Below the pieces are notes generated by a model. It was given only the letters and a program-made list of their open reading frames with translations. It had not been told where the DNA came from and searched no databases. The translations under genes and the position numbers were made by a program. 64,000 bases of DNA from Rosistilla oblonga. Its GTDB lineage: Bacteria > Planctomycetota > Planctomycetia > Pirellulales > Pirellulaceae. The DNA lies in assembly GCF_007751715.1 (NCBI RefSeq), contig NZ_CP036292.1:6455339-6519338 (forward strand), in the 5' to 3' direction. Below are positions 5,951-38,823 of this stretch, in pieces (within the stretch, counting starts at the first letter, position 1; every line of letters starts with the position of its first letter).

Positions 5951-6246
5951 GGAAGGTTTCCCTACACGTTACGGAGCGAACCGAGTTTGCCCGTCAGGTC
6001 GCACGAGAATTGGACGACAGACAAGGTTAGGACCGGACAAATATTGAAGCACGTTTGAAGTATAGTCAGCGCCAGAAAATGATTCAAACATTAAACCACG
6101 AATCCCAAAATGCCTCGCAAGAGGGGGTGTGGTTGCAGCGAATGAGCGAGTTACCAGCTGTAGAGCGACTCGCCGCCCCCGAATCGTCCCCAACTTTGCC
6201 GGTTGGGGAATTCATGAGTCCGCCGGTTTGCGATCCCGGTTTCGAA

Positions 6247-7200
6247 TTAAGCCGGTGACTTCAGCTCCGACCTGACCCCTTTGATCTGCCTTAAGAAGGC
6301 TTCCATCGAAGGCATCCGGTCCTGGACGTTGGGGCTGATGCAACGCATGATCGCCGTCGCCAACACAGGATTCAGGTCGGGGCGGAACTGCAAGATCGGG
6401 ATCGGTGGATGCGTGTCGTGCTGCAGCGCGGCTTTGCCAGTCGTGTCGTTGACAGGCCACGGGAACTCAAACGCGCACAACGTGTAGATCGAAACGCCAA
6501 AGGCGAACACGTCGACGCGTTGGTCGGTCTGCCGACGGCGAACGATTTCCGGCGCCATATAAAGAGGCGTCCCGGTGCGGTTGCCCGGCTGCATATAAGG
6601 AGGCAACGCGGGGACGGTCAAACCGAAGTCGATGAGCTTTATCCGATCCATGTCGGAGGAACAGATAAAGTTGCGAGGGCAGATGTCGCGGTGAATGAAT
6701 CCCTTCTCGTGGACGTATTTCATCCCCTCAGCCATCTGTCGGATCAGCGATAAACGCTTCCCGGCCAAGGTCTCTTCTTTCCGCGTCTGGATGACCTGCA
6801 ACAGCCCAGGGCCGTCGACATATTCCATCACCAGATAGGGTTGCCCCTGCTTGGTGGTCCCATATTCGTAGGTCTCCACGACGTTGGGGTGCTGCATTTG
6901 CACAGCGATCGCCCCTTCGATCGGTTTCTTGAGGCCTTTGAAGCGGGCTTCGAAGGTGGCTACTTTTTCCGCGTCGCACAATTTCAGCCCGACCACGCGG
7001 TTGTATTGCCGATCCCGGGCGGTGATGAAGTTACTCATCGTCCCCGAAACTGCCGACCGCATCCGCTCAAAGCGGGCTTCGACATCCAGGCTGTTGCTCC
7101 CCTTGGTTTGCTTGCTCTTCGGAACCGCCGCGGCGCCGGAATCTCCCTCTTCCGTCTTCTTTTTGCCGATCAGCGATTGAATTTTGTCCAGCAGACCCAT
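6247..7200 (-). CDS. Protein kinase-like protein with HRDICPRN catalytic loop
   Basis: 317 residues. After a ~45-residue polar N terminus comes an eukaryotic-type kinase fold: VVGLKLCD (probable ATP-anchoring Lys), HPNVVETYEYG, LVMEYVDGPGL, catalytic loop HRDICPRNF, LIDFGLTVP (DFG), APEIV and DVFAFGVSIYTL. The Gly-rich loop is not recognisable (SGTMSNFITARD instead), and the catalytic-loop Lys of HRDLKPxN is replaced by Cys, with Arg directly before Asn as in tyrosine kinases (HRDLAARN). It is cytosolic, with no membrane helix, unlike many planctomycete kinases. It starts 30 bp after accD and could be co-transcribed. Activity and target are unknown; an atypical active kinase or a pseudokinase are both possible. 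Confidence 0.8.
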   Translation of the reverse strand: MGLLDKIQSLIGKKKTEEGDSGAAAVPKSKQTKGSNSLDVEARFERMRSAVSGTMSNFITARDRQYNRVVGLKLCDAEKVATFEARFKGLKKPIEGAIAVQMQHPNVVETYEYGTTKQGQPYLVMEYVDGPGLLQVIQTRKEETLAGKRLSLIRQMAEGMKYVHEKGFIHRDICPRNFICSSDMDRIKLIDFGLTVPALPPYMQPGNRTGTPLYMAPEIVRRRQTDQRVDVFAFGVSIYTLCAFEFPWPVNDTTGKAALQHDTHPPIPILQFRPDLNPVLATAIMRCISPNVQDRMPSMEAFLRQIKGVRSELKSPA

Positions 7201-7230
7201 AAACGTAATTCGTAGTCGAGGGGAGGAGTG

Positions 7231-8070
7231 TTATTTGCCACAGTAGTCGATGACGCGGGCGATCTCCGATTTCAAGCGATCGCGAGCGACGATCCGATCG
7301 ATAAAACCATGCTCCAACAGGAATTCACTGGTCTGAAAACCCTCGGGCAATTCGATGCCGATCGTCGCTTTGATCGTCCGCGGTCCGGCGAAACCGATCA
7401 ATGCCTTGGGTTCGGCGAAACAGAGATCTCCCAACGAAGCAAAACTAGCAGCGACGCCGCCCATAGTGGGGTTGGTCAAGACGCTGATGAACAGCCCGCC
7501 CGATTCGTGATATCGAGCCAGCGCTGCGGAGACCTTCGCCATCTGCATCAGCGATAGGATCCCTTCGTGCATCCGAGCCCCGCCGCCGGAGCCACTAATA
7601 ATGATCAAGGGTAGGTTCTGTTCGGTCGCTCGTTCGATCAACCGCGTCAACCGCTCGCCGACAACCGATCCCATGCTTCCCATGATAAACGCACTGTCGG
7701 TAACTCCAAACGCAACGCGGCGAGCTCGGATCATTCCGGTTCCGGTCAGAGCGGCATCGACCAATCCGGTCCGCTTCTGTTCGGCTAACAATCGCTCGGC
7801 ATAACGTTTTCGGTCAGCAAATTCCAAGGGATCGGTGGGCCTCAGCTCTTCGTCCCAGGCTTCAAACGTCCCTTCATCCAAGACCTGTTCGACTCGATCG
7901 GCAGCCGAAACGTAAAGATGGTGGTCGCACTTAGGGCAGACATTCAGCCGCCGTTGGACCTCTTTGCGGTAGACGCTCGACAAGCATCCGGGGCATTTGA
8001 TCCACAAACCCTCGGGAATTCCGCGTTTTTTGGTATTGGGGGCTTCGCTGTTCGATTCGACGGTCGCCAT
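7231..8070 (-). CDS. accD: Acetyl-CoA carboxylase carboxyltransferase subunit beta
   Basis: 279 residues from ATG 8070, chosen over GTG 8082 because a GGGTG lies about 9 bp before it. AccD with AccA transfers the carboxyl group from biotin to acetyl-CoA, the first step of fatty acid synthesis. Visible: the N-terminal zinc ribbon with CPGC and CPKC, and the crotonase-fold blocks [29 protein letters not shown] and [13 protein letters not shown]. Length and motifs are normal for the family. The kinase-like gene follows 30 bp downstream. The AT-rich stretch at 8098-8160 is a likely promoter region. Confidence 0.96.
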
Positions 8071-8454
8071 GCAATTATTCACCCATCAAAGGGGCAGTGA
8101 AGATATTAAATTCGCGTTGTTCGCGATCCAAATATATCGGTTATCGCAATTTTTCGCTGCATCGGTTGGATCGGGGCCCCAGCCCCGCAACGCTTCAGCC
8201 CCGTTAGCCTACGATACCGCTAAGGATTCTTCTAGGCATATAGCCAGGGCTAAGTGGTGTTTCAATTGCAGGCATCAGCCGGCACGCGGTAGCGACGTGT
8301 TCGCTTGGACAACGCCGCGCCGCCGCGGCTCGCCTCATTCGCCGAAGCACAAACACTTAATTGCCCTGGGCATATGGCGTCCGACGTTCGCCCGTGAGAG
8401 CATAGGCACCTATTGTAATCAGCTTTTGCTGTGCCGCACGTAAGGAGGTTTCCG
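8071..8454. other. 384-bp divergent intergenic region
   Basis: Between accD (-) and the PhyH gene (+). It holds an AT-rich patch (about 8098-8155) near accD, where a promoter would be expected, and a family C repeat in reverse orientation (8276-8310). Several open frames cross it but none has a ribosome site or recognisable protein features. Confidence 0.4.
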
Positions 8455-9246
8455 ATGACCAGCCGCTTGCAGATCACTGCCGACGACAAAGCCACCTTCG
8501 ACCGCGAGGGTTTTCTGATGGTCTCCCAACTGCTCTCGCCGCCGGAGGTCCAGCTGTTGGAACAAATCGCCCGCCGCGATCGCGAGATCGAATCGGCAGC
8601 GACCGCCCGCAGCGACGCCGCCGGAGGCCAAACCGTGCTGGCCGTCCGCGATCATTTATCCGACGACATGTTCAGCGCCATCGCACGCTGCCAACGCGTC
8701 GCCGGATCGATGCAGTCGCTGATGGGAGAAGAGATCTACCACTACCACCATAAACTGATGCTCAAAGAACCTCGCGTCGGCGGGGCCTGGGAATGGCATC
8801 AAGATTACGGATATTGGTACAACTACGGCTGCCTGTTTCCGCGGATGGCCAGTTGTTACATCGCGATCGATCGCGCCGGCCGCGACAACGGTTGCTTGCA
8901 AGTCATCCCTCAGTCGCAACAGTTGGGGCGGTTGGAGCATGGCAAAGTTGGCGGCCAGACCGGCGCCGATGAAGCTCGCGTCGACCAGATTCTGAAACGA
9001 CTGCCCCTGCTGCACGTCGAGATGCAGCCCGGCGACGCGCTCTTCTTTCACGGCAACCTGCTGCATCGTTCCGACCAAAACCGCAGCGAGCATTCGCGTT
9101 GGTCGCTGATCTGTTGCTACAACGCCCGCAGCAACAATCCCTACGAAGTCATTCGCCACAACGGATACCAGCCGCTCGAAATGATCGGCGACGACGACGT
9201 GCTGACCGCCGGCACGAACCAGTGGAACGCGCTCACCCAAACCTAA
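8455..9246 (+). CDS. Phytanoyl-CoA dioxygenase (PhyH) family protein
   Basis: 263 residues; AAGGAGG at 8441-8447 fixes the start at ATG 8455 rather than the upstream TTG/GTG codons. PhyH proteins are Fe(II)/2-oxoglutarate oxygenases. Visible ligands: HxD in EWHQDYGYWY (His115, Asp117), distal His in FFHGNLLHRSDQN (probably His204) and the 2-oxoglutarate Arg in SRWSLICC (Arg215). No signal peptide, so cytosolic. Next on the strand are a Gfo/Idh/MocA oxidoreductase and a Rieske protein; together they suggest a small catabolic or modification unit with an oxygenase, a dehydrogenase and an iron-sulfur protein. Substrate unknown. Confidence 0.88.
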   Translation: MTSRLQITADDKATFDREGFLMVSQLLSPPEVQLLEQIARRDREIESAATARSDAAGGQTVLAVRDHLSDDMFSAIARCQRVAGSMQSLMGEEIYHYHHKLMLKEPRVGGAWEWHQDYGYWYNYGCLFPRMASCYIAIDRAGRDNGCLQVIPQSQQLGRLEHGKVGGQTGADEARVDQILKRLPLLHVEMQPGDALFFHGNLLHRSDQNRSEHSRWSLICCYNARSNNPYEVIRHNGYQPLEMIGDDDVLTAGTNQWNALTQT

Positions 9247-9268
9247 TCAAGTAACAAATAGAATCTCC

Positions 9269-9300
9269 TCGTTTAACCGCGTGGGCATCGCCCCGCGTTT
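9269..9300. repeat. Dispersed palindromic repeat, family A, half copy
   Basis: TCGTTTAACCGCGTGGGCAT followed by CGCCCCGCGTTT. The same arm occurs at 14215, 26776 and 28838 (reverse). Here only one arm is evident; it lies just past the 3' end of the PhyH gene. Confidence 0.65.
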
Positions 9301-9369
9301 TGTAATGCCCGCGAGGCCCGCCGGCGCAGACGCTCCCTACTTAAACAGACAGCTTGAAAGACGAACCCG

Positions 9370-10446
9370 ATGGCACGTTGGAAAATCGCCGGCATCAACT
9401 TCGAACATTTTCACATGGGCGACAACTTGCGGCTGGCCGCAGCGTTGCCCGACGTCGAAATCGTTGGCCTGTGCGATGAACAACCCGATCGCATGCAGCA
9501 GGCGATCGACGAATTGCAACTGCCCAGCGAAAAGGTCTTCAGCGATTGGCAGGCTTGCCTGGACCAGACGCAGCCCGACATCGTGCTGCTGTGTCCAGCC
9601 GCTGCGGGGCACGGTCTGTGGACCGAGCGCGTGATGGCTCATGGAGTTGATGTGCTGATCGAAAAACCGATGGCGGCGTCGCTCGCCGAAGCCGATTCGA
9701 TGATCGCCGCGGCGCAGCGGGCCGGTCGGACGCTGGCGATCAATTGGCCGATGACCTGGTTTCCCACTCATCGCACCGCCCACCGTTTGATCCGCGAAGG
9801 GATGATCGGCGACGTGATCGAGGTTCATTATTACGACGGCAATCGTGGCCCGCTACACCATGCGGCGGGCAAGCAGCAGCGAACGGCGGAGCAGATTGCC
9901 GCCGACAAACCGAACAGCTGGTTCTATCAGAAGGCGGCTGGCGGCGGAGCGTTGTTGGATTACCTGGGCTATGGAGCGACGTTGGCGACATGGTTCAACG
10001 GCGGCCAACGGCCGATCGAAGTCACCGCGGTCGTCGACCAACCGGCGGGGCTGGAAGTCGACGAGCACTGCGTGGCGGTGCTCCGTTATGCAACCGGACT
10101 CAGCAAGCTGGAGACCCGTTGGGGAACGTTCACCGATCCCTGGACACACCAACCGCAACCGCGATGCGGATTTGTGATCGTCGGCACCGAAGGGACGATC
10201 GGATGTTTCGATTACCAACCGACGGTCCGACTGCAGACCCGCGAAGAGCCCGCCGGCGTGGAGATCCCTGTCGACGCGCAAGCGTTGATCGACAGCAACC
10301 CCGTCGCCTACCTGATCCACTGCTTGGAAAACCGCCTGCCGATCGAAGGGCCACTCTCACCGGAAACCTCCCGGATCGGACAACAGATCGTCGACACCGC
10401 GATCGCCAGCGCCGCGGCCAAGCAAACGCTGCCGCTGTTGGACTAA
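9370..10446 (+). CDS. Gfo/Idh/MocA family oxidoreductase
   Basis: 358 residues. This NAD(P)-dependent sugar-oxidoreductase family has an N-terminal Rossmann domain and a C-terminal alpha/beta substrate domain. Visible: DVEIVGLCDEQPDR (acidic end of strand 2), DIVLLCPAAAGH and the family signature VLIEKPMA (Lys99-Pro100). The usual GxGxxG is replaced by AGINFEHFHMG at residues 7-17, so cofactor binding may be atypical. The C-terminal part (GGGALLDYLGYGA, ~196-208) also fits the family. Located 123 bp after the PhyH gene and 33 bp before the Rieske gene. Substrate not predictable. Confidence 0.88.
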   Translation: MARWKIAGINFEHFHMGDNLRLAAALPDVEIVGLCDEQPDRMQQAIDELQLPSEKVFSDWQACLDQTQPDIVLLCPAAAGHGLWTERVMAHGVDVLIEKPMAASLAEADSMIAAAQRAGRTLAINWPMTWFPTHRTAHRLIREGMIGDVIEVHYYDGNRGPLHHAAGKQQRTAEQIAADKPNSWFYQKAAGGGALLDYLGYGATLATWFNGGQRPIEVTAVVDQPAGLEVDEHCVAVLRYATGLSKLETRWGTFTDPWTHQPQPRCGFVIVGTEGTIGCFDYQPTVRLQTREEPAGVEIPVDAQALIDSNPVAYLIHCLENRLPIEGPLSPETSRIGQQIVDTAIASAAAKQTLPLLD

Positions 10447-34154: not shown

Positions 34155-34667
34155 CTAGCTCTCCTCTTCGGTCGCTTCGCCCGACGATGCCGACTTTTTC
34201 TTCGCGCGCTCGGCGAGGCGGAGGGCTCGAGTCAGCAGGCGGTCGAAGGTGGCGGCAAACGCTTTTTTATCGGTCTCGCCGTAGGGAGCGGTTCGGCCGA
34301 CGACCATCCCCGCACCGCGAAGGTCGTCCATAAAGTTACGCATCGACAACCGACTGGTGATCGTCTCGGGCGAATACTCTTCGCCGCGCGGGTCGATCAC
34401 AAACAACCCTTTCTCGACTAAGTCACCCGCCAACGGCAGATCGGCTGTGATCGCCAGATCTCCTCGCTGGCCCTCCGCTGCGATGTAGCGATCCGCCTGA
34501 TCCGCTCCCTCGCGAACCTGGATCGATCGAACCATCGACAAACTGGCGGGAACCTCCATCATCCGGTTGGCGACCAGAATCGTTTCGACATCCAATCGCT
34601 TGGCGGCGCGAAACACGATCTGCTTGACATCCATGGGAGCCGCATCGGCATCGATCCAAATCTTCAC
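34155..34667 (-). CDS. DUF188 (YaiI/YqxD, UPF0178) family protein
   Basis: 170 residues from GTG 34667, supported by AGGAG 10 bp upstream (CAGGAGCTCAGCGAA-GTG); the frame is open to 34829 but the family similarity begins at [14 protein letters not shown]188 proteins belong to the PIN-like/NYN nuclease superfamily. Visible: [14 protein letters not shown] with acidic residues, [13 protein letters not shown] and [13 protein letters not shown], the typical conserved core. The C-terminal tail is longer and charged ([20 protein letters not shown]). Function in bacteria unknown. Its start is only ~130 bp from the divergent secreted GH43-like gene. Confidence 0.88.
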
Positions 34668-34814
34668 TTCGCTGAGCTCCTGAGCGTCGCCGCCTCGGAC
34701 GGGGCACTTCAATTTTTCCAAGATTCCAACCGCAGCCAAAGAACCGACAACGGCAGTCGTGTAACATAGTTCCAGCTTACCCTCGTCTGCCCACCTTTGA
34801 AAATCCTGCCCCAA

Positions 34815-36593
34815 ATGAATCGCATGCAACTCTCCTTCTCAAACCGCATTGTTGTCGCGGTCGCCTTGTTTCTCGTGGCTCCCGCCTGCGGTGCCGCTGA
34901 ACCATCGATCCGCGAACTGAACCGCTTCGCCGCCGCCGAAGCCCATCAGGCCGTCGCCGTCGACGCGACTTCTTATTACGCGATCTCCAGCCGAGCGATC
35001 GGTCGCTATGAAAAGCAAACCAACAAACCGATCGCCAATTGGACAGCCCCCGCCGATTCGACGATCCAGCATCTGAACAGCGGCCTCGTCTACGACGGCC
35101 GTCTGTATTGTGCCCATTCCAACTGGCCCGCCTCGCCGCTGAAGAACACGCTTGAAATCTTTGACGCCGCGACGCTGAAACCTTTGGAGAGCAAGGCGTT
35201 TCCCGAAAGCGAAGGAGCGATCAACTGGATCGATCGCCAACACGACGCGTGGTGGATCGTGTTTGCGTTTTACGGCGAAGAGGCCAGCCGAACCCAGCTG
35301 GTTCGATACGACGACAACTGGAAACCGACAGGCCACTGGAGTTTCCCGGAACCGGTCGTTCAGCGATTCCTGCCCAACAGCAACTCCGGCGGCAGCTTTG
35401 GCCCCAACGGCAACCTGTACGTGACCGGGCACGATCGCGGCGAACTGTACGTCTTGGAGGTTCCTGAGGCCGACGGCGAATTGATCCATGTCAACACGCT
35501 GGCCGCGCCGATCGCGGGGCAGGGCATCGCTTGGGACCGCAGCGACGTCGGATCGCTGTACGGGATCGTCCGTCGCAACAAAGAAGTCGTTGCGATGCAG
35601 ATGTCCAACACCGAAGAGTTCACGAAATTGAAGCGTCCGGTGGAGTGGGTTCGCAATAAAAACAATCCCGTGATACCGCCGCGGGGCGAAGGATTTGATG
35701 CCACGCGTTGCATGAACCCATGGGTCGTCCGCAGCGGCGACAACTATCGCGTCTTCTACGCCGGCAGGGACAAGTCGGGGACGCACACGCTCGGGATGGC
35801 GACGTCGGCAATTGGCGACCTCGCCGATTGGGAGCGAACAGGTCCGCTGTTCGGCTCCGGCGCCCCCGGTTCGTTCGACGCCAAGTGGTGCGTGCTGCCA
35901 CATGCTGTCAAATTTGGCGACGCGCAGTGGCATCTGTATTACACCGGCAACGCCGGGCGTGGCGTGGGGCTGAGCTCCTTTCCAGGACTTGGCGTGGCGA
36001 CCAGCAGCGATGGAATCAACTGGACGCGCAGCGATCGCCCGCCGGTTCTAGCTCCCAGCGGAGAATACGGCACTCCCGACGCGATCGGGATCGCTGGCGG
36101 ATCGTTGATCGCGGTCGATCAGCCCGACGGGTCGAAGCAGTGGTGGTTCTATTACACCGGATGTCCAACGACCGGCAAGGCGCATGCGCTCAACCAGCAG
36201 AAGACGATCTGTCTGGCGGTTTCCGACGACGGCATCCATTGGGAAAAGCGTGGCGCCGTGATGGTACGCAACCCCGAACGCGACTACGAAAACATCGCCG
36301 TTGCTGGCCCCGTGGTGCTGCGGGATGACGACGGCCTGTACCGCATGTGGTATTCGGCGATCGGCACGCGATGGGGCTTCTATTCGATCGCGTACGCCGA
36401 ATCGGACGATGGCATCCATTGGCGCCGTGGAGTTGAATCGGACGACAACCTGCAACTCACTCCCAACGGTTCGGGCTGGGAAAAACAGATGGTCGAATAC
36501 CCAACCGTGATCCGCGAAGGAGACCATCTGCGGATGTTCTATTGCGGCAACGGCTACGGCACCACCGGAATCGGAACCGCTGTCTCGAAGTAG
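34815..36593 (+). CDS. Secreted GH43-like (beta-propeller) protein
   Basis: 592 residues from ATG 34815; ATG 34797 and 34824 are alternatives. Signal peptide ends near ACGAAEP. The N-terminal half has propeller-like strands ([40 protein letters not shown]); the C-terminal half repeats the GH32/43/62/68 five-blade pattern: [89 protein letters not shown]. The repeated S/A-x-DDGI-H/NW motifs are characteristic. Glycan hydrolysis or binding outside the cell is likely, but catalytic residues could not be assigned and it may be a non-catalytic binder. Confidence 0.78.
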
Positions 36594-36675: not shown

Positions 36676-37083
36676 TTATTCGGGCCAACCTTTGGTCAGG
36701 ACGCGTTTCATCGCAGCCAGCGTTTCTTTGCTGACATGATGCTCGATCCCCTCGGTATCCGCGGCGGCCGTCTGCTCGCTGACTCCCAATCGACGCAGAA
36801 ACGCCTCGACAATCTCGTGCCGCTTCCGCGATTGCGTCGCCAATCGCTTCCCCGTCGCCGTCAGTTCGATCGGCTGATACGGCTCGGTGTGGACCAACCC
36901 GTCCCGCTGCAAACGCCCGATCGTATTGTTGACCGTGGCGTGCGTGACAGCAAATTGATTGACTAAATCGACGGCGCGACAGACACCACGCTGAGCGATC
37001 GCGTCGGCGATCGCTTCGACATAGTCCTCCGCAACCTCGCTAGCGTGGTCGGATCGAGTGCGTTGATGCGTCTTGGAGGGCAA
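36676..37083 (-). CDS. DtxR/MntR family metal-dependent transcriptional regulator
   Basis: 135 residues, TTG start (37083); no better start seen, so the N terminus is uncertain. Winged helix near 18-75 (AEDYVEAIADAIAQRGVCRA, VDLVNQFAVTHATVNNTIGR) with TATGKRLA, then the dimerisation/metal domain KRHEIVEAFLRRLGVSEQTA and EGIEHHVSKETLAAM. The paired His and Glu around HEIVEAFL and EHHVS match the MntR metal site; there is no C-terminal SH3 domain, as in MntR rather than DtxR. It likely senses Mn(II) or Fe(II). Three TTAG-N6-CTAA boxes lie upstream (37227-37318). No metal importer is adjacent. Confidence 0.85.
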   Translation of the reverse strand: MPSKTHQRTRSDHASEVAEDYVEAIADAIAQRGVCRAVDLVNQFAVTHATVNNTIGRLQRDGLVHTEPYQPIELTATGKRLATQSRKRHEIVEAFLRRLGVSEQTAAADTEGIEHHVSKETLAAMKRVLTKGWPE

Positions 37084-37226
37084 ACCTGGATCCCTTAAAG
37101 GTGCGGATGCGGCGTCGGTTCCGCTGTCAGGCGGCAGAAATTCCCGGCTCGCGGGGGACCCTGGATTCTATCAATTTTGAATTTTCGACTGAACCCCCTT
37201 GATCTTGCCCCACCCGCCGCACTAGT

Positions 37227-37318
37227 TTAGCACCAACTAAGTTAGCCCGCACTAACTCGAGGCAGGTACAACGAAGAACCTGCCTCTTCTACTTGCATGC
37301 AAACTTAGCCTCCGCTAA
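37227..37318. promoter_or_regulatory. Three TTAG-N6-CTAA boxes, candidate DtxR/MntR-type operators
   Basis: TTAGCACCAACTAA (37227-37240), TTAGCCCGCACTAA (37242-37255) and TTAGCCTCCGCTAA (37305-37318), each 14 bp with palindromic TTAG/CTAA ends. They resemble the outer half-sites of DtxR-family operators, though the known DtxR box has a longer spacing. They lie between the divergent regulator gene and a DUF1559 gene, 40 bp before the latter's ATG. Confidence 0.55.
37259..37286 (+). other. 9-bp hairpin between operator boxes
   Basis: GAGGCAGGT (37259-37267), 10-nt loop, ACCTGCCTC (37278-37286), perfectly complementary. It sits between the second and third TTAG-N6-CTAA boxes, so it may be an RNA leader hairpin of the DUF1559 transcript. 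Confidence 0.5.
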
Positions 37319-37357
37319 CTCTGCAAGTTCAACCAACCACAACCGAAGGGTCACTTC

Positions 37358-38482
37358 ATGCGAGTCGAACGATTTCTCAGTCGCGCAAATTTTCAAACCG
37401 CCCACCACAAAAGGTCTCGCCGACGAGGGTTTACGCTAGTCGAACTGCTTGTTGTGATCGCGATTATCGGGCTGTTAGTCGGCCTGTTATTGCCAGCCGT
37501 TCAGGCGGCTCGCGAGACGGCGCGGCGGATGTCGTGCAGCAATCAACTGAAACAAATTGGACTGGCGACGCACAACTACCACTCCACCTTCGGACGGTTC
37601 CCATCGGGCTACGTCTCTTATCCGACAAGGAACGGTTCGGCACCCGCTTCGGTTCTGATCGATCCGCTGACCTGGGACGCCGGTCCCGGTTGGGGTTGGT
37701 CGACGGGGTTGCTGCCGTTTGTCGAAGCAAACACGCTGCTCGACAACATGCGAATCGATCAACCGATCTGGTCGGCGGCAAACCGGCAAGCGATCGCAAC
37801 CACACTGCCATTGTTCTTGTGCCCCAGCGCCACCGGCGGCGACGAACCGTTTGATGTTCAAGACGCCTCGGGCAATCCATTGGCCATCGGCGGCGGGACG
37901 GTTCGCGTCGGACGCAGCCACTACGTCGCCAGCCACGGTCAAGAGAGTTGTTGGGGCGAATGTGGTTCGGCGGCGACGGGAGAGATCTTTACCAACATCT
38001 ATACGTCGACGACAACGATCGTGGCGATCGATGGCGATGCGGGGCGAGTCGCCGACGGACCGTTCTATCGGAACTCCAAAACGCGTTTCCGCGACGTGAC
38101 CGATGGGACCACCAACACGATCTTTTTTGGTGAGCACAGTTCCGCGCTGAGCGACAAAACGTGGGTGGGCGTCGTGCCGGGTGCCTACACGCATCCACAG
38201 TTCTCTTCGCCCGAAAACGGTCCCGACGCCGCGGCGACGCTGACGCTGGTACACGCCGGGCCATCGGGAGGCGAGCTAGACATCACGGGCAGTCCGATCA
38301 TTCACCCCGTCAACTTCCCCACCTATCACGTCGGTCAAATGTATTCTCAACATCCCGGCGGCGGGATGGTTTGCATGGGAGATGGAAGCGTTCGCTTTAT
38401 CAGCGAATACGTCGATCTGTTCCTGTGGGCGGAACTGTCGAGTATGAACGAAGGGGAAGTCATCGCTGGGGAGTCGCTGTGA
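37358..38482 (+). CDS. DUF1559 protein with type IV prepilin-like N terminus
   Basis: 374 residues. The prepilin signal RRGFTLVELLVVIAIIGLL (residues 22-40, cleavage before Phe, Glu at +5) is followed by the planctomycete DUF1559 pattern: LLPAVQAARETARRMSCSNQ with LKQIGLATHNYHS, and near the end GGMVCMGDGSVRFISE (H-x9-DG type block). These pseudopilin-like proteins are present in dozens of copies in planctomycetes and are thought to be surface or secretion-system components. The gene overlaps the next small membrane protein by TGATG. Three TTAG-N6-CTAA boxes upstream suggest metal-dependent control. Confidence 0.93.
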   Translation: MRVERFLSRANFQTAHHKRSRRRGFTLVELLVVIAIIGLLVGLLLPAVQAARETARRMSCSNQLKQIGLATHNYHSTFGRFPSGYVSYPTRNGSAPASVLIDPLTWDAGPGWGWSTGLLPFVEANTLLDNMRIDQPIWSAANRQAIATTLPLFLCPSATGGDEPFDVQDASGNPLAIGGGTVRVGRSHYVASHGQESCWGECGSAATGEIFTNIYTSTTTIVAIDGDAGRVADGPFYRNSKTRFRDVTDGTTNTIFFGEHSSALSDKTWVGVVPGAYTHPQFSSPENGPDAAATLTLVHAGPSGGELDITGSPIIHPVNFPTYHVGQMYSQHPGGGMVCMGDGSVRFISEYVDLFLWAELSSMNEGEVIAGESL

Positions 38483-38823
38483 TGGGAACTACGAACTCCA
38501 AAATGTCGCTGCCGCGGTTCGGCGTGGCAATCGTTGCGGTTGCGATCATCACTGCAGGGCTGTGGTGGTGGATGCGGCCGCCGGCACCGCTCAGCGAAAA
38601 CGGATACGACCTGACGATCGCTCTCTATCGCGTTTGCAACCAACGCAGCGACGAGGGGCTGCAGCGGATCGAGCAACTGTTGGCCGAGAGCCGATCGACG
38701 GGCCAAGCGAGCGATCCATCGCATGGGATCGTCGCGGCGATCGTTGCTCAAGCGAAAGCCGGAGACTGGGAATCGGCAGCCCGAGCATCGCGTCGGGCGT
38801 TGGAAGACCAAGTCAAACGCTGA
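38482..38823 (+). CDS. Small membrane protein coupled to DUF1559 gene
   Basis: 113 residues; ATG overlaps the DUF1559 stop. One hydrophobic helix (FGVAIVAVAIITAGLWWWM, about 13-31) then a soluble helical part (DEGLQRIEQLLAESRSTGQA; AKAGDWESAARASRRAL) that resembles a single TPR-like hairpin. Small companions of this kind often follow DUF1559 genes in planctomycetes. Function unknown; an accessory for assembly of the pseudopilin is a guess from position. Confidence 0.65.
   Translation: MGTTNSKMSLPRFGVAIVAVAIITAGLWWWMRPPAPLSENGYDLTIALYRVCNQRSDEGLQRIEQLLAESRSTGQASDPSHGIVAAIVAQAKAGDWESAARASRRALEDQVKR

Follow-up and report, generated by a model that had tools for sequence, protein, structure and literature searches.

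Three 14-bp palindromic boxes between mntR and a DUF1559 gene of Rosistilla oblonga very probably serve as operators for the MntR encoded next to them and belong to the DUF1559 gene, as judged from their conservation in related genomes. We consider it quite likely that manganese-loaded MntR, which is encoded divergently, acts through these boxes to repress an operon comprising the DUF1559 gene and a small gene, and that the operon is derepressed at manganese limitation. The comparison suggests an envelope protein that is switched on as manganese runs low. The type of operator is known; the DUF1559 target was not found in the open-licence literature searched. The window, by which we mean the whole 64-kb stretch of DNA that was analysed, contains the following features.

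36676–37083, minus strand: mntR, encoding an E. coli-type manganese-responsive regulator of 135 amino acids
37227–37240: MntR box 1 (putative), TTAGCACCAACTAA, one mismatch to TTAGC-N4-GCTAA (ACTAA end), present in both congeners
37242–37255: MntR box 2 (putative), TTAGCCCGCACTAA, one mismatch (ACTAA end)
37259–37286, plus strand: hairpin with arms GAGGCAGGT (37259–37267) and ACCTGCCTC (37278–37286), 9 bp perfect, 10-nt loop, between boxes 2 and 3
37305–37318: MntR box 3 (putative), TTAGCCTCCGCTAA, perfect TTAGC-N4-GCTAA, starting 53 nt before the DUF1559 ATG
37358–38482, plus strand: DUF1559 pseudopilin-like gene, 374 amino acids, member of the MntR-linked orthologue group
38482–38823, plus strand: small gene, 113 amino acids, one membrane segment (by eye)

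A first-pass annotation of the window had described three TTAG-N6-CTAA boxes within 92 bp. A pattern scan recovered them at 37227, 37242, and 37305 as the only matches in the window, and none of 100 dinucleotide shuffles of the window contained three or more (mean 0.09). The R. oblonga genome (7.25 Mb) has nine matches, three at the DUF1559 locus and six elsewhere. At the shuffle rate of the window, 0.09 matches per 64 kb, approximately 10 would arise by chance in the genome, so the six outlying matches need no explanation. TTAGC-N4-GCTAA, the consensus in relatives, describes the box more informatively than TTAG-N6-CTAA, which has one base less per half-site. The genome contains 53 sites within one mismatch of this longer form, which makes a lone site of this kind weak evidence. 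Box 3 matches the MntR box core TAGC-N4-GCTA exactly, and boxes 1 and 2 have one mismatch each. Box 2 starts 15 bp after the start of box 1; this 15-bp tandem is also found in L018, L022, L023, L039, and L088 (L numbers denote loci and G numbers genomes). Elsewhere in the R. oblonga genome, a perfect TTAGCACCAGCTAA site lies at the 5' end of a 226-amino-acid open reading frame (L004). Among the sites listed, the 14-mer TTAGCCGTAGGTAA stands at four places (C1:1127731, 1132677, 1133007, and 4988744), three of them within 5.3 kb, which suggests a small repeated element.

The regulator is MntR. It scores 173.4 bits against the NCBIfam MntR equivalog PRK11050 (cut-off 153), the sole NCBIfam model above its cut-off, and the Pfam domains Fe_dep_repress and Fe_dep_repr_C also exceed theirs. 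Its best match in the PDB is E. coli MntR (2h09, E 3e-27), and it is the one MntR match in the R. oblonga genome. The metal ligands of B. subtilis MntR (D8, E11, H77, E99, E102, and H103) align in the PDB comparison at an offset of 12 with D20, E23, H89, E111, E114, and H115; all six expected ligands are present.

The boxes had been read in the first-pass annotation as DtxR/MntR-family operators of the DUF1559 gene, and their conservation upstream of DUF1559 orthologues supports this reading. In 31 orthologue upstream regions, related by descent such that the sites are not independent events, exact TAGC-N4-GCTA occurs 40 times, with at least one copy in 25 regions. Shuffled regions contained a mean of 0.04 exact sites and a maximum of one (100 shuffles). 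The 31 regions were drawn from 34 chosen loci (L098, L154, and L158 were left out) and include L094 and L100, from genomes without detected MntR, as well as two congeners of near-identical sequence. When the gap between half-sites was scanned from 0 to 10, gap 4 was filled, gap 5 occurred once, and gaps 0–3 and 6–10 were empty. TAGC ranked first of the 256 four-base half-sites (40 sites), followed by TCGC (10 sites). Positions and distances of the boxes shift between species. In 23 of the 25 regions with an exact core (all but L016 and L101), the nearest core starts 40–86 nt ahead of the start codon. Loci of the relatives fall into two box classes, TTAGC..GCTAA and GTAGC..GCTAC.

The 6-bp spacing, which had been taken as new, is that of known MntR boxes. 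In E. coli K-12, an exact TAGC-N4-GCTA stands 18 nt ahead of the annotated start of mntH, inside the small ypeD frame, with two more between mntS and mntR and a fourth inside mntH. The core is identical in E. coli and the planctomycetes, and the regulator of R. oblonga is above the equivalog cut-off. The planctomycete boxes differ in their outer base pair, which is T..A or G..C, and in their arrangement, with usually two or three per promoter and sometimes a 15-bp tandem, whereas the E. coli mntS/mntR pair lies 19 bp apart. They also differ in their most regularly boxed target, which is DUF1559 in planctomycetes as opposed to mntH, mntS, or mntP. The boxes provide a usable MntR box for planctomycetes.

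The regulator varies together with the box. At position 53, in the recognition helix, 14 of 16 MntRs with GTAGC-type boxes have Arg, compared with 4 of 25 whose boxes are TTAGC-type (Fisher p 1e-5, uncorrected for phylogeny). This comparison used 43 hand-chosen mntR rows, two of which are ATAGC-type and stand outside the Fisher test; the box classes, also assigned by hand, were fixed before the helix sequences were looked at. Such a pairing is expected if MntR reads the boxes directly, and descent could explain part of it.

The two genes also occur together. Among 60 genomes of the family, a DUF1559 orthologue (E <= 1e-120) was found in 20, MntR (E <= 1e-20) in 26, and the two together in 18 (Fisher p 2e-7, uncorrected for phylogeny), and the pair is present in many genera. 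The DUF1559 threshold omits weaker, boxed relatives beside mntR in G024 and G053 (L158 and L154), which were counted as absent. Boxes within two mismatches accompany the orthologue in 17 of the 18 genomes with both genes, and the remaining genome (L097) has a degenerate box pair 28 bp apart. The L097 boxes lie at -146 and -118 beside an adjacent mntR, and one half-site of each has lost its G. For the orthologues in two genomes without detected MntR, one has no box (L100) and the other a single weak site (L094). Three orthologues (L086, L091, and L101) keep box pairs with no mntR in approximately 1.44 kb upstream; MntR is encoded elsewhere in their genomes.

Viewed from the regulator, the boxes follow the neighbour. 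A DUF1559 relative lies upstream at 15 of 28 mntR loci, and 14 of these have boxes within two mismatches; the fifteenth (L150) is the L097 locus. Five loci have a metal-binding-protein gene upstream, confirmed by similarity, and all five are boxed. At the eight loci with another or unknown upstream gene, six are boxless (L141, L151, L156, L160, L163, and L167). L157 and L153, where neither target was seen, have one GTAGC-type site each, the L153 contig ending 331 nt upstream. No box was found at mntR loci L025, L026, and L038, and L024 has one two-mismatch site 606 nt away. Further mntR loci outside the orthologue set (L040–L042 and L044–L068) are boxed in some cases and boxless in others; neighbours were read for L046 only. 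Because boxes are kept without an adjacent mntR and are mostly absent at mntR genes with unrelated neighbours, they go with the target rather than with mntR.

Four genomes (G029, G046, G056, and G038) contain a second, more divergent mntR (L164, L165, L166, and L167). In L164–L166 this copy has boxes and a divergently oriented metal-binding-protein gene beside it, an arrangement that would pair one MntR with the transporter and the other with DUF1559; the match at L166 includes one in-frame TGA. In L025, the boxless mntR is followed within 6001–9834 by open reading frames that read by eye as a DtxR-type/FeoA fusion and a FeoB-like protein.

A second candidate target is a TroA/MntA-type metal ABC transporter. 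The R. oblonga genome has one such gene, away from mntR, and TTAGCACCGGCTAC starts 43 nt before its ATG with one mismatch. As one of 53 one-mismatch sites, this box gains weight only from its conservation in L126 and L137 of the same genus and from the perfect box in L136. Among solved structures the binding protein is closest to TroA, and manganese-binding proteins are among the next; the protein is below every NCBIfam cut-off, with the zinc protein AztC as the top sub-cut-off model. In L031 and L034–L036, a boxed operon divergent from mntR reads by eye as binding protein, ATPase, and permease (the profile search of these binding proteins covered L031, L034, and L035 only), and a boxed binding-protein gene is divergent from mntR in L037, L146, L152, and L164–L166. 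In several genomes, TroA/MntA-type operons bear the same boxes as the DUF1559 gene and hold the same position divergent from mntR, whereas in the window DUF1559 holds this position and the transporter gene lies elsewhere.

A search for boxes at metal transporters, which had been proposed as a check, succeeded at TroA/MntA-type genes in several genomes but not generally, with 24 of the 30 ZnuA/MntA-type genes examined lacking a plausible box. These genes were scanned from the start of the binding-protein match, and L125 has no box in 456 nt. Ten of the 30 come from genomes in which MntR was found: four are boxed (L120, L126, L136, and L137) and six are not, five of the latter being distant from the R. 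oblonga protein (31–38% identity) and one close (L132, 61%). Seven boxless genes encode proteins 50–57% identical to the R. oblonga binding protein (L112, L113, L115, L117, L123, L124, and L129), and the genomes of L123, L124, and L129 have no detected MntR. No listed site within one mismatch lies near the Nramp gene of R. oblonga (C1:1973632). With 24 of 30 transporter genes boxless, the DUF1559 operon is the more regular bearer of boxes in the family.

We weighed four other explanations for the boxes. The most improbable, in our judgment hardly credible, is that the repeats form a structured leader RNA, an attenuator or riboswitch with the boxes as parts of stems. It draws on the window leader, which folds better than its shuffles (z-score -3.5) and contains the 9-bp hairpin. 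The hairpin was correctly described as perfect and placed between boxes 2 and 3, but it is not conserved, being imperfect in both other genomes of the genus (L011 and L012), where folding is weaker or lost (z-scores -1.8 and +0.2) while the boxes stay in place. Furthermore, box distances vary between species, and the 4-nt gap between half-sites is constant, as expected of a site bound by protein. Neither an Rfam match nor a terminator-like match was found. The hairpin was set aside as a functional RNA or terminator on these grounds; its imperfection in the congeners and their weaker folding make it unlike part of a conserved device, and it is probably incidental. Slightly more weight, although still very little, goes to the idea that the boxes serve mntR autoregulation only and that DUF1559 is an accidental neighbour. 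The boxes do lie in a divergent intergenic region common to both genes, but the L086, L091, and L101 orthologues keep them with no mntR within approximately 1.44 kb upstream, mntR genes with other neighbours mostly lack them, and the R. oblonga genome, which has one mntR match, nonetheless has a box before its distant metal transporter gene.

The first-pass annotation had left the metal open between manganese and iron. The 19-bp TTAGGTTAGSCTAACCTAA-like operator is the form known for the iron regulators DtxR and IdeR; the boxes do not take this form, being 14-bp TTAGC-N4-GCTAA with a 4-nt gap alone enriched. A mainly iron-responsive regulator of IdeR/DtxR type, exerting iron control over a pseudopilin, appears very unlikely. 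A DtxR profile also matches the protein and MntR is able to bind iron according to an excerpt of a published study (PMC4361602), but the profile match is far below cut-off, no NCBIfam model other than MntR exceeds its cut-off, D20 and E23 occupy MntR ligand positions, and the box core matches that at the E. coli mnt genes. On these family grounds (an E. coli-type MntR, its ligands, and its box) manganese is taken as the probable metal. Activation has somewhat better prospects than these alternatives, although we still regard it as unlikely: at manganese excess MntR-Mn would turn on the DUF1559 operon, whose products would aid manganese export, sequestration, or protection of the envelope. Two points argue weakly against activation: MntR usually represses import genes, and the nearest core starts 40–86 nt ahead of the start codon in all but two of the 25 regions, the box of the R. 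oblonga transporter gene standing at a similar 43 nt. On the other hand, several boxes before one gene would fit cooperative activation, and MntR proteins can be dual regulators; B. subtilis MntR is described in an excerpt as binding several sites upstream of exporter genes and activating them (PMC11275975). No sigma-70-like promoter was found in 37060–37380, so operator geometry does not decide between repression and activation.

Repression by manganese-loaded MntR remains the preferred reading, and from the combined evidence we infer binding of the boxes by MntR, manganese as the metal, and repression as the direction of control. With sufficient Mn(II), MntR-Mn dimers would occupy the boxes, two of which form the 15-bp tandem, and keep transcription off. 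Manganese scarcity would derepress the two-gene operon, along with the ABC transporter where it is boxed. The operon product would then be part of an envelope response to manganese limitation, most likely aiding manganese acquisition at the cell envelope.

The DUF1559 protein matches Pfam PF07596 with 201 bits, which places it in that family, and N_methyl with 34.9 bits; it also has the H-X9-DG-CTERM motif (TIGR04294), and all of these matches exceed their cut-offs. With this prepilin N-terminus and H-X9-DG C-terminus, and a pilin-like model, it resembles other DUF1559/PF07596 (SBP_bac_10) proteins. Its orthologue group is set apart by MntR boxes and group-specific residues. Orthologues outside the genus are 57–80% identical to it, whereas paralogues in its own genome reach at most 43% (matches covering at least 330 of 374 positions; shorter pieces score higher), which marks a distinct orthologue group. 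The genome has 73 DUF1559 matches at E <= 1e-8, a count that includes the window gene and in which some genes appear in two pieces. Twenty-nine of these paralogues were examined over the 400 nt preceding the prepilin motif, and none has a box within one mismatch. Nine residues (H193, E196, C198, H260, H299, E306, D308, H316, and H324) are invariant in 31 aligned orthologues, and each occurs at the aligned position in no more than 7 of 29 own-genome paralogues.

An AlphaFold2 model built with 71 diverse sequences (pLDDT 73, pTM 0.77) contains a long pilin helix at residues 27–78. Residues 197–211 and nearly all of 278–325, which hold five of the nine group-specific residues, are below pLDDT 50; modelling on 20 orthologues alone gave a pLDDT of 38.6. 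The solved matches listed for the model are pilins or a pseudopilus, all of them weak (best Z 4.5), and the best Foldseek E value was 0.11; the lack of a match carries no weight in such searches. A profile search of the PDB with the protein returned almost solely pilin N-termini, and the one PHROG match with a named function is a pilin.

The ATG of the small gene overlaps the DUF1559 stop codon by 1 nt (TGATG). Its product has no family match in Pfam or NCBIfam, and in several relatives it begins, by eye, with a lipobox-like sequence. Of 33 loci at which 350 nt or more of DNA follow the orthologue, a set in which some genomes are counted twice, 32 have a homologue downstream. The exception (L099) has a similar open reading frame by eye. 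The two genes therefore form a conserved unit.

It is tempting to speculate that the DUF1559 protein and the small membrane protein or lipoprotein constitute an envelope manganese-scavenging device, in which H193-G-Q-E196-S-C198, H260, H299, E306, D308, H316, and H324 would capture manganese outside the inner membrane for delivery to a TroA/MntA-type ABC transporter. We hold this proposal tentatively, as less likely than not. If true, it would by extension make the scores of DUF1559 paralogues in each genome a family of envelope proteins, each specific to a nutrient.

In Planctomycetes, DUF1559 paralogues are very numerous. According to an excerpt of a published study, Planctopirus limnophila has 68 paralogues of unknown function, two of them essential, in a family apparently restricted to Planctomycetes (PMC10632474). 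In Rhodopirellula baltica, 74 DUF1559 genes are described, the domain being assigned to solute-binding proteins, and nine of the 74 are induced within an hour under cold and salt shock (excerpt of PMC2754498); regulation of some members is thus already known. Among open-licence PMC papers, none was found that connects MntR to DUF1559 or reports an MntR regulon in planctomycetes. A conserved MntR operator on one DUF1559 group supplies a regulator, and a growth condition in which to look for what one member does. A comparable module is described in an excerpt for Stenotrophomonas maltophilia, in which a lineage-specific operon near mntR has an MntR box 75 bp upstream; the operon encodes a TonB receptor and a periplasmic thioredoxin-fold protein and is expressed when manganese and iron are both low (PMC13217887). 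Both are lineage-specific envelope operons near mntR with an MntR box and a proposed role in metal acquisition; the S. maltophilia module, as excerpted, consists of different proteins and includes no pseudopilin. The planctomycete pair differs further in occurring in many genera of its family.

Relatives of the DUF1559 protein or of its prepilin end are encoded on 241 IMG/VR stretches, the best 80 of which are L229–L308. These are either phage-carried copies or host contigs, and they are surprising given the description of the family as apparently limited to planctomycetes. Elsewhere in the window, the gene at 34797–36593 encodes a GH32 N-terminal domain above cut-off and a GH130 match just above it. 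If its first TTG is used, it overlaps the start of the divergent DUF188 gene (34155–34829); the true start of the GH32-domain gene is probably further in.
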